Source: Flavobacteriaceae bacterium
Lineage (GTDB): Bacteria; Bacteroidota; Bacteroidia; Flavobacteriales; Flavobacteriaceae
NCBI GenBank assembly: GCA_029238215.1
Contig: JAQWGN010000017.1
Location: 1-64,000 of the forward strand
Reading direction: 5' to 3'
DNA length: 64,000 nt
The notes below the pieces were generated by a model. The model was not told the origin of the DNA and made no database searches. It saw only the letters and a list, made by a program, of their open reading frames with translations. Below, piece after piece: positions 1 through 9,815 of the stretch. Each line of letters opens with the position of its first letter. Position 1 is the first letter of the stretch. The translations under genes and the position numbers were made by a program.

Positions 1-111
1 AATTTATCTTAGCACCACTAAACATACGGTGACGTAAACTATTAAGCTTAAAGTCGACGTAATACATACCGTCGTATCGGCGACAGACTTTCGGATAGGA
101 GAGACTAGAAT

Positions 112-129
112 TTGGCAACTATATGGCAA
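112..129. repeat. 18-bp repeat, left copy (candidate integrase arm site)
   Basis: The sequence TTGGCAACTATATGGCAA contains two spaced near-copies of TTGGCAA. A copy differing at one base lies at 335-352, and the pair flanks the tRNA-derived sequence at 204-260. Short direct repeats on both sides of a tRNA-derived core are the usual layout of arm-type binding sites of tyrosine recombinases. No integrase gene is visible in the window, so the role is inferred. Confidence 0.45.
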
Positions 130-203
130 TTAACTTAAACAACTATTTTTAGGTTTAAGCTAAGTGTCTATGACTCAGTGGTTAGTAACCGAAACGCAAC
201 GTA

Positions 204-260
204 GGCCCCAACTGACTCATAATCAGTTGGTCCCTGGTTCGAGCCCAGGTGGGACCACCA
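204..260 (+). pseudogene. tRNA(CAU) 3' half; D-arm missing
   Basis: A perfect anticodon arm is visible (ACTGA / CTCATAA loop / TCAGT, anticodon CAT), then a five-base variable loop, a T-arm (CCTGG TTCGAGC CCAGG), the acceptor 3' strand TGGGACC, discriminator A and an encoded CCA. This fits tRNA-Met or tRNA-Ile2 (CAU). No normal D-arm precedes it: immediately 5' of the anticodon arm is GGCCCCA, which would pair with the acceptor strand at six of seven positions. A D-arm-like CTCAGTGGTTAG occurs at 174-185 but is out of register. The simplest reading is the 3' tRNA fragment left by integration of a mobile element at a tRNA gene. A D-armless tRNA-like RNA is a less likely alternative. Confidence 0.7.
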
Positions 261-265
261 ACACG

Positions 266-290
266 CCCCTTCTTTACGGAGGGGTTTTTT
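266..290 (+). terminator. Intrinsic terminator after the tRNA fragment
   Basis: A seven-base-pair stem (CCCCTTC with GGAGGGG, one G-T pair) closes a TTTAC loop and is followed by six T residues. It sits six bases after the CCA end, where the terminator of an intact tRNA gene would be. This suggests that the flank to the right of the fragment came with the tRNA 3' end. Confidence 0.75.
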
Positions 291-334
291 CTATAGACGA
301 CTTAGCGAAGAACCTACTGTAAAGCTACTAATTC

Positions 335-352
335 TTGGCAACTATTTGGCAA
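335..352. repeat. 18-bp repeat, right copy (candidate integrase arm site)
   Basis: TTGGCAACTATTTGGCAA matches the copy at 112-129 at 17 of 18 positions and is in the same orientation. It lies 16 bases beyond the stop codon of the FISUMP gene, between that gene and the tRNA terminator. Confidence 0.45.
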
Positions 353-368
353 CCCCTAGAATTTTAGC

Positions 369-1985
369 TTAATTGTCTTTAACAAAACGCACTGAAAAGC
401 CCGTAAGCTTGTTATAGGAAGCCCTTTGCATAATAGACAAAGCGTTACTAAGATTGCGGTACCAAGAATTTATTATGCCGTCCTCAGCGGAACTCCAAAA
501 GGGTGCAAAGACACCCTCACCGTCGAACGAACCATCGAAACCACGGTAACCCCCAGGCAAGGTGTTAAAGCCGCTGCTGTTGTTAAGGCTTTGGTCGTTG
601 CCTACTGCTCCTGTACCTGTGGAATTATTCCAGCCTGTGGTGGAGGCCATCGCTTTGGCTATATTGTTTCCTGTGGAGGTATTATCGTAATTGTAGCCAT
701 TAGCTATGAGGTAATTTTCAAGCGTTGTCCACTCAGCATCATTCGGTACGTCCCAACCTACTGGCGCAAACTCTTTGTTGGGGGTGTTAGGGTCGTTGTC
801 GTGAATTCCTGCTACTGCATACCAATTATATAACTTCCCTTTTGAAGGGTCATTATCATAATAGCACCACGCACCAGTGGTAAGGTTTTCCCACGCTGTA
901 TTATCAGTCACTTGCGGTATTTCAGTACCATCCCTGTATGTTACTACTTCTGCATTTTTTAAGGTCCATAATTGGTCTCCATAGTTTAGGTAAGGGTAAC
1001 TATTACCGTCTTGGTCAGTCACGGTTCCAGAACCTGTTGTAGTCTGTAATGCATCTATTTGCTCTTGAAGGCTAGAAATTAAAGCGTCTACTTCTGCTTG
1101 AGTATACGTGTTTGAAACGCTGTTATCTACATAGTTTTTAGTGGTAACATCCTGTGCCTCTGTAGGATCTGCTACATTCTTAATTTGGTTGTTTTCTGCG
1201 CTCACGGTTCCGTTTAATAGAATACTTCCGTTAGCTCCAATAGAACTAGCGTCTCTGACAAAACGTACCGAAAAGCCATCCCCCATGCCGTAGTCACTGT
1301 CCAGGGTACTGCTATTGTGGTACAGGTTGCGCATCCATGCGTTATCCATCTCAAACTCAGAGGAACTCCAAAAGACCGCGTCTCTACCATCACTACCAAA
1401 CCCACCAAGCGCGGTACGGTAACCCTCAGGGAAGGCGTTAAAACCGCTGCTGTTGTTTAGGCTTTGTTCGTTGCCTATTGCTCCTGTGTTGGATGAACTA
1501 TTCCATCCTGTGGTTGAGGCCATTGACTTGGCTATTTTATTTCCTGTAGTTGTACCATCGTAATTATATCCATTTGCTATTAAGTAATTTTCTAAAGTGA
1601 ACCATTCGGCATCTGTTGGTACGCGCCATCCCTCTGGCGCAAATTCTTTGTTTGGCGTGTTAGGGTCTGTGTCGTGTATGCCCATCACAGCATACCAATT
1701 ATATAACTTTCCTTTACTTGGGTCATTGTCATAGTAACACCAAGCGCCTGTAGTAAGGTTACTCCACGCTGTATTGTCGGTCACTTGCGGTATTTCAGTG
1801 CCATCTCTATACGTAACTACTTCCGATTTTTCTATCGCCCAGTCTTGTGTACCATAGTTTATCCACTCAAAAGTATTACCGTCTTGGTCTGTTGCAGAAC
1901 CGTTAGCGTATCGCTGCTCTCCTTGGCTAAAGGCTGTTGCTGTAAACAAAACAGTCGTAAAAAGTGTATAAAGTAGTTTTTTCAT
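369..1985 (-). CDS. Secreted FISUMP-domain protein with two tandem copies
   Basis: Two copies of the Fibrobacter succinogenes major paralogous (FISUMP) domain lie at about residues 44-253 and 335-546 of the longer ORF. They are joined by a linker with a tail-fibre-like motif (NQIKNVADPTEAQDVTTKNYVDN region) and a predicted coiled coil. The chosen start gives MKKLLYTLFTTVLF..AFSQ, a clear signal peptide; the ORF-track start lies eight codons upstream and is less likely. A TAnnTTTG -7 box sits 21 bp upstream. FISUMP domains occur in extracellular proteins and are thought to have a C-type-lectin-like fold; their ligands are generally unknown. Both copies end in the typical GFSVRFV(R/K)D. The first ~125 residues of the copies are nearly the same, but the last ~65 differ strongly. 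The gene lies between a tRNA fragment and a broken mobile-element gene, so it is probably accessory. Confidence 0.82.
   Translation of the reverse strand: MKKLLYTLFTTVLFTATAFSQGEQRYANGSATDQDGNTFEWINYGTQDWAIEKSEVVTYRDGTEIPQVTDNTAWSNLTTGAWCYYDNDPSKGKLYNWYAVMGIHDTDPNTPNKEFAPEGWRVPTDAEWFTLENYLIANGYNYDGTTTGNKIAKSMASTTGWNSSSNTGAIGNEQSLNNSSGFNAFPEGYRTALGGFGSDGRDAVFWSSSEFEMDNAWMRNLYHNSSTLDSDYGMGDGFSVRFVRDASSIGANGSILLNGTVSAENNQIKNVADPTEAQDVTTKNYVDNSVSNTYTQAEVDALISSLQEQIDALQTTTGSGTVTDQDGNSYPYLNYGDQLWTLKNAEVVTYRDGTEIPQVTDNTAWENLTTGAWCYYDNDPSKGKLYNWYAVAGIHDNDPNTPNKEFAPVGWDVPNDAEWTTLENYLIANGYNYDNTSTGNNIAKAMASTTGWNNSTGTGAVGNDQSLNNSSGFNTLPGGYRGFDGSFDGEGVFAPFWSSAEDGIINSWYRNLSNALSIMQRASYNKLTGFSVRFVKDN
1007..1880. 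repeat. Internal duplication in the FISUMP gene (copy 1 and linker)
   Basis: The DNA for the first FISUMP copy (about 1251-1880) is a direct repeat of the second (about 372-1007), separated by ~240 bp of linker. Blocks such as EVVTYRDGTEIPQVTDNTAW and NNSSGFN are shared exactly. Similarity falls sharply in the 3' ends of the copies (1251-1445 versus 372-572). Confidence 0.8.
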
Positions 1986-2037: not shown

Positions 2038-2278
2038 TTATAATACTTTAACTGTAAACTCTTTATGCCCTGTAGCCTGTGAGCGTTCTGTTTGTAGCTT
2101 AGGCACTGTGTAGTTTATTAGTATCCTAAGTAGTGCAATACGTTCGCTGTTTGTTAGCTGTTCTGTATTAATTGTATTTAATGTTTGTGTCGCTAGGTCG
2201 CTTAGCTTAGCCCTTATCTCGCTAGAGTATTTAGCCTTTCCGCGTTTACTTTTCTTTCCGGCTTCTATTGCCGTTAAC
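2038..2278 (-). pseudogene. 3' remnant of a phage/ICE-type gene
   Basis: One minus-strand frame is open from next to the end of the large surface-protein gene to a TAA at 2038. It gives about 79 residues without a usable ATG (TAIEAGKKSKRGKAKYSSEI ... HKEFTVKVL). The pattern, a basic start, then a helix with LTNSERIALLRILINYTVPKL, then a short tail, resembles small phage or ICE proteins of Bacteroidetes of the GRPKGS..R..ILxxFVVPKL type (terminase-small-subunit-like / DUF5681-like). That is my recognition and has not been searched. The missing 5' end, directly against the stop codon of the neighbour, suggests a recombination scar. It is too short and startless for the ORF track. Confidence 0.5.
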
Positions 2279-5200
2279 CTACCGAATCAAGCTAAAGTGT
2301 CCCGTAAAATTTCTACCGTCTTCGAGTTTAACATTAAACCAATAATCATCAGCAGGCAAAGGAGTTCCATTATAGGTGCCGTCCCATCCCGGACCACTCG
2401 GGCTAAGTTCCTCCAACAAACGCCCATGGCGATCAAAGATGTAAATAAGAGACTCTGCTTGGAACAAACTATTTAAACCTAAAACATGCCAGGTATCATT
2501 TTGGCCGTCGTTGTTTGGCGTAAAGAAATAGTTATATCCAACTATGGATACCTTTAAACTGCGCATACCACATCCGTTTTTATCGCGAATCCAAACGGTA
2601 TGAATTCCTGGTGGAACATCTTCAAGAACAGGACTGTCTTGAAAAACTCCTCCGTTTAATGCAAAATGATAGTCGCCAACGCCTAAGTCAGCAGTTCCTG
2701 TTTTTAGCTCTATCCGATTGCTGTCATTTCCTGTTAGGTCAAACACAGCAAGATCGGAAGTGTCAAATTTTGGAATTTCTGATTCCGCTACCTCAATGGT
2801 TTTGGTTGTAGAACATTTACTGACGGGATTTGTTGCTGTTACTGTGTAAGTTCCTCCTTCTGTAATGCTGATGCTCTGTGTCGTTTTTGGTAAAGCAATG
2901 CCATTGTGAGCCCATGAATACGCATAGGCAGCACCTACATTAGTCACGCCAATAGTATCCGAACCAAGATCTTTACAAAAAACCTGCGTGTCTGGCAGGG
3001 TAAAATCTGGAACAGGATCAACGATAAAATCGGCCACCTTAATGCGTCCTAAACATGTAATCGTGGATACACCAACATCCTCAATTCCGACCCAAATCTC
3101 TTGAGCATAAGGAGTGTCATTGGTATAAGTAATATTACTGTTAATTGCGTTATTTTGAAACAGCGCATCAAATTCACTTTCGTAATATGTGATTTCAACG
3201 GTAGGGGAGTTATAACTCGGCTCCACAAGGAGTAATTCATTGGTTATTTCGGAAAAAATGGCTGAATCAAAGGTGCCTATACCTGGCGTTGCGCTGCTGG
3301 CGGCATCAAAGCAATCATAAAATATCTTTGGAGTAAAAGTTGCTGGAACACTATTGGTTCCTACCCTTAGATCAATAACAATCTCACCAATTCCAGCAAC
3401 TAAATCGTTGTATCGCTCACATCCAGTGGTATCATTTTGAATAGAGACATATACCTTTATGTCTTTTGTTGAAATAAAAGAGCTGGGATTTAAAACAGGG
3501 GTTAATCGGGCTGCATCTAAATAAAAGGAAAAAGTTTCTTTGGCATGATTATCCGAAAAAGTACTAACCAAACCTGTTAGGTCGTATTTTATTTCCCCAT
3601 CACTTTCACATTGCTCAATAACCAATAGGGAGTTTTTCAGCACGGGTAATTCATCAACCACCAGCTTAAAAGAATTATCAAAACGAACACATTCAGAGGT
3701 TTTGTCTTTAATGCGAACAAATATCTCTTTTTCTCTTGAGTCCGATAGGGTTGTAGTATAGGTCGTAATCGCAGAATTATTTTTAGCCTCCGTTAAAGAA
3801 GCGTGGTAGCTTATCTCATAATTACTGGCAGCCCCGCTCAATAGCCCTTCAATAACAGGGGTGTTTTCCGTTAGGTCAAATTTATGTAAGCCGTCTTTGT
3901 CAGTACCAACGACGCGATCATCACACTTGTGAATGTCAGGAATTACAAGCTCAGGAGGGAGGTCTACAGCGACTAGATTGAAGGTCTTTATTTCTGAGGA
4001 AAAACAACCGGTTAATTTGTTTTTTATTCGGTAGTGTATGGTTTGTGGGTTGGCAGTATTGGTATAGGAACTGGATGTATCAATAGCTCCGGTTAGCGAT
4101 TGCGCATTTGTGTTTGATTCATAAAAAAAGACTTCTCTATCCAAAACACTTCCAATAATATCTTTTTCCTGTTGCGCAAGGTCAAAATCGGCCACGTTCA
4201 TATTGGTGCTATCACCATCTAAATTGGTATCACACTCCTCCACAGCATTCGCAGGTAGCATTAGGGGTAAGTCATTAACGGTTATGGTTATACTATCCGA
4301 ACACGCAATTCCATTAACCTCAACCTCATAAAAGTAAGTCGTAGTTTTAGTAGGAGTTTCTGTAAGTGAATTACTTTTTGCCCCATTGATAAGGGTTTTT
4401 GTTCCTCCACTTTCTTGTGCGTACCACTTCACATCCGACACGCCTGAGAACTCTATAACCGCCCTAGAATTTCCTGTGTTTTCACCGATATCGTTAAAAA
4501 ACTTGCCCATGGAAGCACTGAAATTAAATTGCCCATAATCTTCATTACCGTTTTCTGCACATCCTTCGTCACACCCTAGGGGATAGTCGTTGGGCTCATC
4601 TTGGTATGGTGTTGAGGGATTATCATACCATAGGTTCCACGAAGAATCTAAATCTCTTCCGTCGAGCCACCGCCAGCCCAAATCTATCTGTTCTGGAGTT
4701 CCCTTTAAACCATTGAATTGTTTGAGTCCCAGCCAAAACTTGCCGTTGTTATGGTATCGATTTGCAACTAAAGCATTCCATACCGCATCGTGTTCGGCAA
4801 GTGTGTTGATTTGATACATGGTTGCACCTGAACCAAGCCCAGAAATAAGCGTGTTGGCTTCATCCCATGTTTGAATATCTGGGTTGTAAAAATATGCTGA
4901 ATCTAGATACTCCAAAAACTTAGTTAGTCTAGGGTTGGCAGCCTCAAAATCAGGAACAGTTTGAGGGGCGCCTGTTACAGTCAAGGAAACACTATCGCCC
5001 AAGCAAATGATATTTTTACTTGCATTAATATCAGGACTTGCGATAAGAACATCTGTTTTTGAACGCAAAAGACTTTCGTCCCCTAAAGCATTAAAAGCAC
5101 TAATGAAATAATCTTCTCCGTTAATCAAAGGGGTAGTATTAGCAAGGATGGCACCTCCCGTTTCATTTTCATACACATTGATATCAGTCAATCCAATTAG

Positions 5201-8200
5201 AGCTTTTAAATCACCAACATCTCCAGAATCACAAAAGGCGTATAACTTGTCAAGAATAGGCGAGTTGGGTAATGCCAAAACGGTAAGTGTCGCAGCACTA
5301 GAAGGACTTGTGCATAAATAAGTGTTTGAATGAATTAAAGCAGAGAAACGTTTACCATTCAAAGAGGTGTCTGTCGTAGTGACACGGAGCGTATTTGTAT
5401 TGGTTCCAACAAACGTAGCGCCATCAGTAATGTTTTTACCATCCATTTGCCATTGATAGGCAGCAGCATTAGAACTTTCAACGGAAAAAGTTGTCGTCTT
5501 ATTCTCAGATATTTTTTTTGATTTAGGTTGAATAGAAAAGGTAGCAGAGCTACCAGCCTCTTGAAAATCAAATATTCCATTGCCATTTCTGTCTACGGGG
5601 CTTTGCGTATAATCATATCCGGAATAAACCACACGACCACGAATATCTGCACTCGAAACACTTGCTGAAGGATCATAGAGAATAGGGCTAGTGCCCGCAT
5701 ACGTATCTCCGTCTGGGTTACTATACCCTGCTTCTATTACATCGGGGCAACCGTCATTATCGCTATCATCATCAAAAGCATTTATAAGGCCGTCTCCATC
5801 CAAATCTTTTTTATAATTTATAACCTCTACAACAGCATCGAATTTAGAGTCTGCAGTAGAAACAGCGCTTAAGGCATGGATGTACTCAAACCCAACGATA
5901 TTAACCCCAAGTATTTCAAAAGGAATGGAAGCATCTAGGGGTGAGGGGTTGTATTTAAATTCAAGTTGATTGCTGCTAATTCCTTGCGGAGGTATTATTT
6001 TGAACCCCGTACCATCATTTACAAGAAGCTTTTCTCCCGGGTCTAGTAGAGTAAAGTTTTCAGCAGGTGGAAAAGCAATAAACATAAACGCCTCATCTGG
6101 ATTTGAAGGTTTATTAATGGCATTATTTTCGCGTATCCTTAAATTAAACCCTTCACTCGAAGATACAATAGGGTTTAATTGATATGTGATTTTTTCATTT
6201 GTTCCAGTCACTGTAATTGCACTTGAAAACGCACCACCAGCACCACCTGAAATCGATCCAGAAGTAGCAGTCGTAATGGCGTTTGAGGCAGCAGGACTGT
6301 TAGACGGCAGTGTAATTACTGGTGATCCAATAGCTGTAAAATCAATACTTCCAACGCCAGAAGATTCAACAGCGTCTAAAATACCATCGTTATCATTGTC
6401 CATATCAATATTATCTGGAACACCATCATTATCCGTGTCTTTTGGGCAAACGCTAACAACAATGTCATCAGAAAGGTAATCTACAGTAGGGTAACAATTT
6501 AACTTCCCTAGTAGTTTATAGATTCCTGTTTGTGATGGTTTATAAAAGGATTTAGTATAATCTCCAGGAGCGTCGTTAAATGTACTCGTGGCATCATCAT
6601 ACTTCATCCATTTAAAAGAATCAAAAGCTGAACTGGTTGATAAAATGACATTAGAACTACCATCTTCCAAAATACAGTTTCCTAGGGCAGAAACAGCAAG
6701 CTCATTTCGTATAGGCGGATTTGACACAAAACCAGAGTAATAACTCCCTGAAGATGCCGCATCTCCATAGGTTGTCGAAGCAACATATAATTCTTTATCT
6801 GAAAAAACAGAAATATTTCCAACAAGTGAATTGTCCCCATTCGAATCTAACAAATAGGTGTTGTACCCAGGCTTTCCATCAACTGTTTTGGCAAGCGTAG
6901 TCAAGTTTATGGGAGCGGCTCCAGAGCTATCAGCAAGTAAAACCGTATTACCAGAGGCATCCGTTTTGTAAATTTCGAGAACGGCAGTGTCTTCGGTAAC
7001 GATACTTAGGGTTCCTCCCGTAAAGGTTTTATTTCCAATTTTCTCAACCTCAGGAATATTGTCAATATTTCCCCGAGTTGAGCATGATAGCGGAGGAACA
7101 AACACCAAGGCTTGATTCGCTCGTCCGATATACCCTGTTGTTTGATAAACAAATAGTTTTTTTGCTGGATTTTTAGTCGTTATATACAGATTTCCGGTTG
7201 ATTCATAATCATTATTACTAAAAACTACATGCTCTCCTGAATTTAACACGACGGGTGTAGTTCTATTTCCTCGATACACTTCTGTATTATCAGAATCAGC
7301 AATTACATATATTTTTTCAACCTCAACGTGGCCTAACCCTCGAATTAAAACATACTCATGTCCAACTTTATCTGCCCCAACAATTTGATCCAATCCGAAG
7401 TCTCTGTTCCCAATCGTTGGATCTGAAATAACAGTATTTTGAATGGAGCCAGAAACCACCACCACCGGCTTTTCTGTAGCAGAACCCATAGAATCTGAGG
7501 AGCGAATTAGTGACCCAATAAAGGCTTTTATTTGATCATTATTATTTCCTATGTCGTCACTGTTTGCCGTAATCCCTAAAATCCAACATTCGTTTTGCTG
7601 AAGAGTCTTTTCTAATGGAGTTCCCCCAGTGTAATTCATAAGACTAACACCCGCTGGGATATTAGAAATACGAACGCGAGTATTGTCTTCCGTAGCAAGA
7701 ATAGAAACGAAGCTGTGCCCCTCAGAAATAGTGTTATTATTCGTATACCCAGGAACCCCTATAAAGTTTCCGGGCCTAAAGCTTGTTCCCAAAGCAGCGA
7801 TTCCTTTACTAACATATGCTCCTGAATGGTACTGACCTCTATCTGGAAACTCCTCGGAATTAAAACGAAATGAAACATACGTAACATCATCCGACTCTAT
7901 AATGTATCCAGCATTGTTTACAACGGTATTAGAAACACTTTTTAAGTCTAAAATACTTTTGCTGCCAACCCCATCAAAGGTTATCGAATAAATTGAAAAG
8001 ACCCAAGGATTGTCATTATTAATACTTTTTGTTTCCCAATCCCCTCGGGTACCACCAATGGGCTTAATGGTAACATTTATAAAGCCCTCACTAGGAGTTG
8101 AGATATAAAACCACTGGTCACCCATATTACTTCCAGAAGCAATAGGAGGCATATAATGCACCTTGCTTAGTTGCCCAAATAGATGTGACTGGCAACATAA

Positions 8201-8242
8201 AAGCGCTGCAAGTAGGGCTATTTTTAGAGCAATATTCCGCAT
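2279..8242 (-). CDS. Giant T9SS type B-sorted surface adhesin with C-type lectin domain
   Basis: This 1,987-residue protein begins with a signal peptide (MRNIALKIALLAALLCCQSHLFGQ). About residues 55-400 resemble the IgGFc-binding N-terminal domain. Calcium-binding thrombospondin-type-3 repeats follow near residues 600-620 (DTDNDGVPDNIDMDNDNDG) and 805-845. A C-type-lectin-like domain lies at about 1130-1267 (FWLGL..W.W.DG..; W.PNDYP; ending RAVIEFSG), after which come several Ig-like segments. The C-terminus from about 1900 (FFTPNNDGQNDTWHVLG ... FTGHFSLIR) is the gliding-motility-associated CHU_C type B sorting signal, so export by the type IX system and surface retention or release are expected. 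It is divergent from a porP/sprF gene only 32 bp away, the usual partner of such cargo. Probable role: adhesion or polymer binding. Ligand unknown. Confidence 0.85.
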   Translation of the reverse strand: MRNIALKIALLAALLCCQSHLFGQLSKVHYMPPIASGSNMGDQWFYISTPSEGFINVTIKPIGGTRGDWETKSINNDNPWVFSIYSITFDGVGSKSILDLKSVSNTVVNNAGYIIESDDVTYVSFRFNSEEFPDRGQYHSGAYVSKGIAALGTSFRPGNFIGVPGYTNNNTISEGHSFVSILATEDNTRVRISNIPAGVSLMNYTGGTPLEKTLQQNECWILGITANSDDIGNNNDQIKAFIGSLIRSSDSMGSATEKPVVVVSGSIQNTVISDPTIGNRDFGLDQIVGADKVGHEYVLIRGLGHVEVEKIYVIADSDNTEVYRGNRTTPVVLNSGEHVVFSNNDYESTGNLYITTKNPAKKLFVYQTTGYIGRANQALVFVPPLSCSTRGNIDNIPEVEKIGNKTFTGGTLSIVTEDTAVLEIYKTDASGNTVLLADSSGAAPINLTTLAKTVDGKPGYNTYLLDSNGDNSLVGNISVFSDKELYVASTTYGDAASSGSYYSGFVSNPPIRNELAVSALGNCILEDGSSNVILSTSSAFDSFKWMKYDDATSTFNDAPGDYTKSFYKPSQTGIYKLLGKLNCYPTVDYLSDDIVVSVCPKDTDNDGVPDNIDMDNDNDGILDAVESSGVGSIDFTAIGSPVITLPSNSPAASNAITTATSGSISGGAGGAFSSAITVTGTNEKITYQLNPIVSSSEGFNLRIRENNAINKPSNPDEAFMFIAFPPAENFTLLDPGEKLLVNDGTGFKIIPPQGISSNQLEFKYNPSPLDASIPFEILGVNIVGFEYIHALSAVSTADSKFDAVVEVINYKKDLDGDGLINAFDDDSDNDGCPDVIEAGYSNPDGDTYAGTSPILYDPSASVSSADIRGRVVYSGYDYTQSPVDRNGNGIFDFQEAGSSATFSIQPKSKKISENKTTTFSVESSNAAAYQWQMDGKNITDGATFVGTNTNTLRVTTTDTSLNGKRFSALIHSNTYLCTSPSSAATLTVLALPNSPILDKLYAFCDSGDVGDLKALIGLTDINVYENETGGAILANTTPLINGEDYFISAFNALGDESLLRSKTDVLIASPDINASKNIICLGDSVSLTVTGAPQTVPDFEAANPRLTKFLEYLDSAYFYNPDIQTWDEANTLISGLGSGATMYQINTLAEHDAVWNALVANRYHNNGKFWLGLKQFNGLKGTPEQIDLGWRWLDGRDLDSSWNLWYDNPSTPYQDEPNDYPLGCDEGCAENGNEDYGQFNFSASMGKFFNDIGENTGNSRAVIEFSGVSDVKWYAQESGGTKTLINGAKSNSLTETPTKTTTYFYEVEVNGIACSDSITITVNDLPLMLPANAVEECDTNLDGDSTNMNVADFDLAQQEKDIIGSVLDREVFFYESNTNAQSLTGAIDTSSSYTNTANPQTIHYRIKNKLTGCFSSEIKTFNLVAVDLPPELVIPDIHKCDDRVVGTDKDGLHKFDLTENTPVIEGLLSGAASNYEISYHASLTEAKNNSAITTYTTTLSDSREKEIFVRIKDKTSECVRFDNSFKLVVDELPVLKNSLLVIEQCESDGEIKYDLTGLVSTFSDNHAKETFSFYLDAARLTPVLNPSSFISTKDIKVYVSIQNDTTGCERYNDLVAGIGEIVIDLRVGTNSVPATFTPKIFYDCFDAASSATPGIGTFDSAIFSEITNELLLVEPSYNSPTVEITYYESEFDALFQNNAINSNITYTNDTPYAQEIWVGIEDVGVSTITCLGRIKVADFIVDPVPDFTLPDTQVFCKDLGSDTIGVTNVGAAYAYSWAHNGIALPKTTQSISITEGGTYTVTATNPVSKCSTTKTIEVAESEIPKFDTSDLAVFDLTGNDSNRIELKTGTADLGVGDYHFALNGGVFQDSPVLEDVPPGIHTVWIRDKNGCGMRSLKVSIVGYNYFFTPNNDGQNDTWHVLGLNSLFQAESLIYIFDRHGRLLEELSPSGPGWDGTYNGTPLPADDYWFNVKLEDGRNFTGHFSLIR

Positions 8243-8247
8243 ATTCT

Positions 8248-8255
8248 TAGCTTTG
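8248..8255 (+). promoter_or_regulatory. -7 box (TAGCTTTG) of the PorP/SprF gene
   Basis: TAGCTTTG matches TAnnTTTG exactly and lies 19 bp before the ATG at 8275, inside the 32-bp gap between the divergent adhesin and PorP/SprF genes. Confidence 0.5.
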
Positions 8256-8274
8256 CGTAACTTCGTCTAAGATA

Positions 8275-9288
8275 ATGAAATTTAACATGTCCTCTTTTTA
8301 CAACATACTTGGAATAGCGACAGTACTTTTCATTGTTTTTCTTCAAACGGCAAAAGCACAATATCGGCTGCCTGTGTACACAGACTATTTAACCGATAAC
8401 TACTACATCTTACACCCCGCCATGGCAGGCGCACATTTTGAAGGAATCAAGCTACGAAGTTCTTACAGAACACAATGGTTAGAAACCCCCAACGCACCAT
8501 CAATGCAATCGCTTAATGCACATGCTCGTGTTGGAGAGCGGTCAGGAGTTGGAGGGATGTTTTTTCACGATAAAAATGGATTTCAGTCCCAATCGGGATT
8601 TCAAGCCACCTATGCACACCACATTCCCTTTACTACTAGTAGAACAGATATCAATCAATTTTCTTTTGGCCTTTCAGGTGGAGGATCATTTTACCGTCAT
8701 GATCGATCGTCTTTTGATCCAACGAATGATATTATAGTTCAAGGAACCAATCAAAACAGTTCTAGCTTCTTTGTTGATGTTGGGATAAGTTATAACTACT
8801 ATAATTTATATGCGCATCTAACAGTTAGAAATTTGGTATTCGTAGGAAAACAATTAAGTGACGAAGTAATTCTTGATAAACCCAAACGGGTGTTAGCTTC
8901 AGCTGGAGCGTTTGTGGAAATGTCCGATAGATGGGCATTAGAACCCTCTTTCTTGGCCGACTTAGTTCAATATGTTAACAGGCCTAATGTGGACATAAGC
9001 TTAAAATCACACCACGATTTGCGTAGTAGCCAGCTGTGGGGAGGCCTGTCTTTTAGAAAAGGGCTAACAAATACCTTAACGGAATACAATACCGTTCCCT
9101 ATGCCGAACCCTATTCACAAGTATCAATTATAACAGGGATCCGACAGAACAAGTGGATGTTTTCATATACGTATACGCTTGGGTTGGGAGATAAAACGAT
9201 TAACTCTTCCGGATTTCATCAATTTACTCTAGGGATAGATATTCTCAGTAACGAATTCCGCCCCACATTTATCCGCGGAATACTTTAA
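8275..9288 (+). CDS. PorP/SprF family T9SS outer-membrane protein
   Basis: This 337-residue protein has a signal peptide ending TAKAQ, followed by the family's opening pattern (YRLPVYTDYLTDNYYILHPAMAGA). It then alternates short polar and aromatic beta strands and ends FRPTFIRGIL. PorP/SprF proteins are outer-membrane barrels that work with the type IX translocon and are usually paired with one type B-sorted cargo protein. Here the candidate cargo is the divergent 1,987-residue adhesin. A second PorP/SprF gene lies at 14758-15636, so the two probably serve different cargo. Confidence 0.9.
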   Translation: MKFNMSSFYNILGIATVLFIVFLQTAKAQYRLPVYTDYLTDNYYILHPAMAGAHFEGIKLRSSYRTQWLETPNAPSMQSLNAHARVGERSGVGGMFFHDKNGFQSQSGFQATYAHHIPFTTSRTDINQFSFGLSGGGSFYRHDRSSFDPTNDIIVQGTNQNSSSFFVDVGISYNYYNLYAHLTVRNLVFVGKQLSDEVILDKPKRVLASAGAFVEMSDRWALEPSFLADLVQYVNRPNVDISLKSHHDLRSSQLWGGLSFRKGLTNTLTEYNTVPYAEPYSQVSIITGIRQNKWMFSYTYTLGLGDKTINSSGFHQFTLGIDILSNEFRPTFIRGIL

Positions 9289-9347
9289 CTTTATGAAATG
9301 AAACAGGCACAACTCGTTTTAACGGCTTTTTGCTTCCACCAAATAAT

Positions 9348-9815
9348 ATGTTAGAAATTGAACGCAAGTTTTTAGTCCAGGATGTAAAAGCAAGTATTTC
9401 CCAAGCCACGGCATCGTTTAACATTTTTCAAGGATACCTATCCAATGATCCTGAACGCACGGTACGTCTTCGCATAAGTAATAACAAAGCGTTTTTAACG
9501 ATTAAAGGGGCTTCTTCTGAGGATGGAACAACTCGAGTGGAGTGGGAACAAGAAATTCCCTTGGGTGAAGCCAAAACACTAATGCCTTTATGTTTGCCAG
9601 GGGGTATAAAAAAAACACGCCATTGGGTTCCAGCAGGCAAACATAATTTTGAGGTTGATGTTTTTGAAGCATCACTGACAGGCTTAGTTCTTGCAGAAAT
9701 TGAATTGGAATCTTCAGACGAGAAAGTTGAGTTACCCAATTGGATTGGAGAAGAAGTTACTGGAGATAAACGGTATTACAACAGCTATTTGTCTGTTCAC
9801 GGAATACCATCTTAA
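9348..9815 (+). CDS. CYTH domain protein (triphosphate-binding, probable triphosphatase)
   Basis: The start MLEIERKFLV is the hallmark ExExK motif of the CYTH superfamily (CyaB adenylate cyclase / thiamine triphosphatase / inorganic triphosphatase). Further charged tunnel residues follow (TVRLRISNNKAFLTIKG; RVEWEQEIP; FEVDVF; LAEIELES). The length of 155 residues is that of a single CYTH domain without a CHAD domain. I chose the ATG at 9348 over the upstream TTG because the motif normally begins the protein. Many stand-alone bacterial members are inorganic triphosphatases, but the substrate cannot be read here. The gene converges on the PBP gene with a 4-bp overlap of stop codons. Confidence 0.85.
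   Translation: MLEIERKFLVQDVKASISQATASFNIFQGYLSNDPERTVRLRISNNKAFLTIKGASSEDGTTRVEWEQEIPLGEAKTLMPLCLPGGIKKTRHWVPAGKHNFEVDVFEASLTGLVLAEIELESSDEKVELPNWIGEEVTGDKRYYNSYLSVHGIPS

Follow-up and report, generated by a model that had tools for sequence, protein, structure and literature searches.

A secreted two-headed FISUMP protein of the Flavobacteriaceae whose divergent tails are probably decayed variable regions of a lost diversity-generating retroelement

A two-headed FISUMP gene and its divergent tails

The window analyzed here comprises the first 64 kb of C19, one of 19 contigs in a Flavobacteriaceae assembly of 1.67 Mb (88% complete). An open frame on its minus strand (369-1985, ATG at 1985) encodes a 538-residue protein consisting of a signal peptide, FISUMP unit 1 (1257-1904), a linker (1032-1256) and FISUMP unit 2 (381-1031). 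The product is a member of the FISUMP (Fib_succ_major) family and exceeds the curated cut-offs of both PF09603, which matches it in two stretches (E = 1.9e-66; 224 bits against a cut-off of 33.9), and TIGR02145 (E = 5.3e-41; 141 bits against 41.65); unit 1 is matched by Pfam and TIGR02145, and unit 2 by Pfam. The putative signal peptide, MKKLLYTLFTTVLFTATAFS, was judged by eye. The linker carries a tail-fibre-like motif, NQIKNVADPTEAQDVTTKNYVD, which recurs at C19:98072-98212, and a likely coiled coil; its Phage_T7_tail match is weak (E = 0.0037, below cut-off). AF2 models unit 2 with high confidence (pLDDT 96.3), and a Foldseek search of the PDB with this model gave 4eps as its best, weak match (E = 0.18), followed by weak matches to snake lectins; a PDB sequence search gave no match. 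It has been previously reported that 4eps can be superimposed on TvpA, a protein of a diversity-generating retroelement (DGR) (PMC4159848). The FISUMP heads presumably bind ligands. In all, the genome holds seven FISUMP matches: two in the window gene, three at C19:92.9-95.4 kb and two on C10. Upstream of the gene lies a large surface protein of 1987 residues (2279-8242, minus strand), whose ending suggests that it is likely of a gliding or secretion type.

The original prediction held that the two units are copies with divergence concentrated at the C-terminal end, differing at about one position in eight outside the tail and at more than half of the final ~65 residues, with the motifs GYR, FWSS, W.RNL and GFSVRFV fixed in both. 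A codon alignment bears out each of these points: the units are 70% identical over 216 aligned residues, 87.3% over unit residues 31-156 (126 residues) and 45% over the final 60, and the four motifs are conserved. Identity is therefore not uniform along the units, but the opening 30 residues, unmentioned earlier, are also divergent (50%). A permutation test gave no tail divergence as extreme in 100,000 trials, and 17 of 215 circular shifts were as extreme because of these divergent opening residues. From the core to the last 60 residues, NG86 estimates of dN rise from 0.10 to 0.60 and those of dS fall from 1.25 to 0.85, so that dN rises without any rise in dS. The two tails differ from each other at all three codon positions.

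The tails compared with a template from other genera

Our reference for the window tails was the template repeat of other genera (L089 type, described below); the lineage's own template could differ. Relative to it, the unit 1 tail is mismatched at 35 of 66 template adenines (0.53) and 16 of 111 other bases (0.14; P-value 6e-8), and the unit 2 tail at 37 of 65 adenines (0.57) and 22 of 112 other bases (0.20; P-value 5e-7), although part of this bias could stem from selection, since the codons that vary are the ones marked by template adenines. Mismatch in both tails thus falls mainly at template adenines, as in the variable protein of a DGR, in a decayed form.

Synonymous bases offer a cleaner test. 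At codons whose residue is shared with the template and is not Asn, and with the L089 gene as the upstream control, unit 1 uses the same codon in 21 of 25 cases in the tail (0.84) and 64 of 112 upstream (0.57; P-value 0.009), and unit 2 in 20 of 25 (0.80) and 56 of 114 (0.49; P-value 0.004). Paralogues that lack the signature, with similar scaffold divergence, reach 6/20, 10/19 and 7/20 (0.30-0.53). The adenine bias and the same-codon excess together mark 1257-1436 in unit 1 and 381-563 in unit 2 (both minus strand) as apparent aged variable regions of DGR type. At template Asn codons, third bases are mismatched in 21 of 50 cases in the window and 127 of 175 in signature-less paralogues (P-value 9e-5); within these codons, adenine positions against the third base gave a P-value of 0.047 for the window tails, and a test of C/T order gave 0.04 and 0.19. 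A count of codons ending in C or T was dropped as evidence, since it comes to 12-21 of 25 in signature-less paralogues as well.

Taken alone, the signal of the window tails is modest. Non-adenine and third positions have also changed in both, a pattern consistent with old, frozen variable regions. In the tandem FISUMP paralogue at C19:92934, the second unit has a fresher DGR-type tail (non-A mismatch 0.11) and the first unit lacks the signature.

Retroelement machinery and template-type tails across genera

The absence of a reverse transcriptase (RT) and template from the window, as first noted, extends to the whole assembly. A profile search of the assembly (88% complete) found no RVT_1, a protein search for DGR-RTs across 400 genomes of the family found none in this one, and RVT_1 was not found in 16 congeners. 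DNA searches of the assembly with the unit 2 tail and with a relative's template found no template repeat, returning only FISUMP paralogues and short chance matches; 17 matching bases at C1:503-519 (E = 0.1) were put down to chance. No Avd was found within the 146 kb of the genome examined. Neither the DGR-type RT nor the template repeat that define a complete DGR is thus present in this assembly. What stands of the original DGR reading is the type of the region, with adenine-biased mismatch to a template that occurs together with a DGR-type RT in other genera; an active DGR at this locus is contradicted by the missing RT (assembly and congeners) and template, the decay of the tails and the lack of a hairpin described below.

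Among relatives' loci, a DGR-type RT (motif GLPIGNLTSQ) was found near the FISUMP gene at two, L089 and L127. Behind the FISUMP gene of L089 (Flavobacteriaceae S4E-18) come a template repeat, which reads FPEGNRNNNGSFNNEGNNAIFWSSTENNTNNAWNRNLNNNNSNLNRNNNNKQNGFSVRFVRD, and a frameshifted RT; L127 has FISUMP, Avd, template repeat and RT in that order, the last a single open frame. The 400-genome family survey yielded one more case, G186, whose single contig carries FISUMP, Avd, template repeat and a frameshifted RT. The bAvd profile matches L127 at E = 1.6e-15 and G186 at E = 1.3e-10. An Asn-rich repeat was seen only in L089 and L127 among the relatives' loci scanned, in a scan that predates G186; templates of the L089/G186 type are rich in AAC/AAT codons. 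Against its own template, the L089 tail is mismatched at 34% of adenines and 3% of other bases, and the G186 tail at 42% and 1%. These two tails are ordinary DGR targets.

Template-type tails are more widespread than this machinery. With a threshold of non-A mismatch ≤0.20 and P-value <1e-4, 12 genomes carry such tails: our own and those denoted L089, G186, G002, G101, G104, G105, G108, G110, G111, G112 and G115. A template and DGR-type RT are found in two of the 12 (L089 and G186), with the RT frameshifted in both, and nine genomes besides our own have neither, an absence that is weaker evidence for several of the nine because they are incomplete MAGs. Two fresh tails occur in G110 (Winogradskyella sp. 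KYW1333), again without template or DGR-type RT. RTs of G104 (BAL38) were rejected as a DGR source, being of SP rather than DGR SQ type and on a different contig from the FISUMP gene. On a scaffold tree the template-type tails are scattered, with 2 of 29 branches starred, a tree too poorly resolved to count gains or judge clustering.

Nine tails were classed as fresh (L089, G186, L084, L087, L094, the second KYW1333 gene, L209, L013 and L088). In pairwise comparison, their identity at third bases climbs from 0.60 upstream to 0.90 in the tail, and amino-acid identity runs in the opposite direction, down to 0.27 in one tail segment. The corresponding third-base values are 0.56 and 0.68 for the aged group, which includes the window, and 0.48 and 0.37 for the signature-less group; these averages are descriptive and not a test, because the groups were picked by the same template comparison.

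The target site itself also sets the window gene apart. In seven of the nine fresh relatives, a GC-rich hairpin without mismatches, GGGGCTG(C)..(G)CAGCCCC, lies 26-34 nt after the tail; L013 has it with one mismatch, and it was not found at the second KYW1333 gene. Retrohoming of the BPP-1 DGR requires a hairpin/cruciform at the target site (PMC3240598), which the fresh relatives resemble in the GC-rich hairpin a short distance past the tail, although their loops are not the GRNA tetraloop of BPP-1. The hairpin could instead be a terminator. It is absent from the 3' flank of the window gene, and by this test the window tails are therefore not a current target.

The retroelement cassette also differs from its target in divergence. 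The Avd-TR-RT block (TR, template repeat) is 92.8% identical between L089 and G186 over 1631 nt, and the adjoining target gene and upstream neighbour are 79.1% identical; in this one pair, the cassette therefore seems to move separately from the target. The single-base RT frameshifts lie at different sites (L089 11789 and L250 11133) and therefore look independent, with sequencing error possible.

The tRNA setting and the origin of the tails

Downstream of the window gene lies a tRNA-Met (CAT) reduced to its 3' half (209-261, plus strand), 90.6% identical to the tRNA-Met that closes the L089 element; ARAGORN called no tRNA at this position. Positions 212-289 are 98.7% identical to the tRNA-Met region of the congener G015, in which a FISUMP gene adjoins an intact tRNA-Met. 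The half tRNA is likely an attachment-site duplicate. Between it and the gene lies a 3' flank (282-368) shared with the paralogue at C19:92.9 kb (91.6% identity over 282-375), which lacks the DGR hairpin and includes direct repeats, one of which, TTGGCAACTATTTGGCAAC (335-353, plus strand, read from the sequence, with a similar copy at 112-130), is possibly an integrase arm site. That paralogue adjoins an intact tRNA-Asn (L008:7722-7796 and 7932-9563; C19 ~92.7-94.6 kb), and the L089 element terminates at its tRNA-Met next to a serine recombinase. Altogether, tRNA 3' ends adjoin four of the FISUMP loci. On the other side of the window gene, a small open frame (2041-2280, minus strand), read without a start codon in the window and without a Pfam match, is 56% identical over 75 residues to its homologue at L253:7864-8088, which in G015 sits between the tRNA-Met and the FISUMP gene. 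No integrase was found in ~2 kb around the window gene. This setting leads us to infer that the gene is carried by an integrative element that went in at the 3' end of a tRNA gene.

Several smaller observations concern the same neighbourhoods. A small protein beside the FISUMP gene of L084 (11118-11453, minus strand), without a Pfam match, resembles by eye the 2041-2280 frame and its L253 copy. Downstream of the G002 FISUMP gene, L252:1-356 is 92% identical over 122 bases to part of a recombinase-like frame of L089 (5743-5863), so recombinase remnants adjoin that gene too. Contigs end less than 370 bases downstream of the FISUMP tail both in the window (1-368) and in G002 (C57:1-356), and a repeat at this site may be breaking assemblies.

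The reading that we prefer, at a probability of roughly 75%, is that the window tails are former DGR variable regions of a secreted two-headed FISUMP protein whose gene is integrative-element cargo. Two lectin-like heads, joined by the tail-fibre-like linker, would each have had their last ~60 residues copied from a template repeat with adenine-specific errors (mutagenic retrohoming). The DGR (Avd, template and RT) would since have disappeared from the window lineage, leaving the tails to decay like ordinary coding DNA and the scaffold under purifying selection, with the gene carried at a tRNA 3' end. We consider it probable both that these very tails were written by retrohoming and that the DGR was lost from this genome rather than missed.

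It is doubtful, though in keeping with the position of FISUMP genes at tRNA ends, like element cargo, that the tails were made by a DGR elsewhere and arrived as 3'-end or whole-gene transfers, with no DGR ever at work in the window lineage; this account agrees with the preferred one on DGR origin and differs only in where it took place. In seven of eight fresh relatives, across genera, the 3' flank outside the template is 72-88% identical to that of L089, so that 3' ends are possibly travelling by recombination, but this conservation may instead reflect selection as a homing target. The fresh tails also hold independent states at template adenines, with first-position identity between tails of 0.24-0.32 at template-adenine codons, and each was therefore written separately. 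The flank of the window gene matches that of L089 at 0.46, near the shuffled level of 0.45.

An old duplication that never met a DGR, with a constrained scaffold and a binding face under relaxed or diversifying selection, seems improbable. It would account for a tail dN six times that of the core with dN/dS below 1, for variation at all codon positions and for an assembly with neither RT nor template. Diversifying selection, the other half of the original prediction, agrees with the raised tail dN, yet it accounts less well for tails whose synonymous and non-adenine bases are nearer to a template from a foreign genus than the scaffold is to its counterpart, a pattern absent from paralogues of equal scaffold divergence. 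Diversification still acting in trans, from a DGR in the unassembled 12% or on an element present in some cells, is very improbable: remote targets are known (PMC7517822), the assembly is incomplete, the contig stops 369 bases downstream of the unit 2 tail, where a DGR often lies, and the second unit at C19:92934 is fresher, but decay has reached the non-adenine and third positions of each window tail, the gene lacks the hairpin and the conserved flank of the target site, and no RT was found in 16 congeners.

Fossil variable regions are already described (PMC4372165, PMC7517822). Fib_succ_major is listed as a DGR target domain in the human microbiome (PMC4159848), and those targets share with the window gene the Pfam domain and a C-terminal variable segment, but they were identified through an adjacent DGR or a matching template, whereas the window gene has tandem heads and no DGR in its genome. 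RT-less DGR fragments of Nanoarchaeota, termed possible fossils (PMC4372165), likewise combine an adenine-type history with the absence of an RT gene at the site; their genomes hold other DGRs, whereas our assembly has no RT and the template that its tails match occurs in other genera. The cyanobacterial gene all3226, a lectin-fold paralogue, keeps remnant TR-VR homology without a nearby RT (PMC7517822) and resembles the window gene, whose heads are putatively lectin-like, in retaining template homology after loss of the machinery, but it is one gene compared with its genome's own DGR, and ours is a cross-genus set. In the open-licence literature we found nothing on RT loss or DGR transfer in Flavobacteria; within such papers, the contrasts of tail with scaffold across genera and of cassette with target appear to be new.

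Most work on DGRs treats target, template and RT as one unit. Here, the apparent product of retrohoming occurs in about a dozen genomes of one family and the machine in two, frameshifted in both. With template-matched synonymous bases as the marker, former DGR activity can be traced in target genes by themselves, and it becomes testable whether DGRs are passing diversifiers rather than residents. The cassette comparison of one pair suggests movement apart from the target. We tentatively extend this, at less than even odds, to a hit-and-run DGR whose Avd-TR-RT cassette would travel between marine Flavobacteriaceae genera separately from its targets, rewrite the 3' ends of resident FISUMP genes and then die or leave; if so, most carriers would retain their individual set of diversified heads for binding after the machine behind it is gone. 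From the tRNA setting, the surface heads that marine flavobacteria secrete are likely to sit on mobile elements.

A phage origin was rejected: FISUMP relatives occur in 41 viral contigs, none of these records with RVT_1, and the window protein matches no phage record. An exact-pattern scan of viral contigs found no virus carrying the template. Two viral FISUMP genes (L043:9998 and L050:10118), in records without an RT, are 93% identical upstream and 57% identical in the tail.
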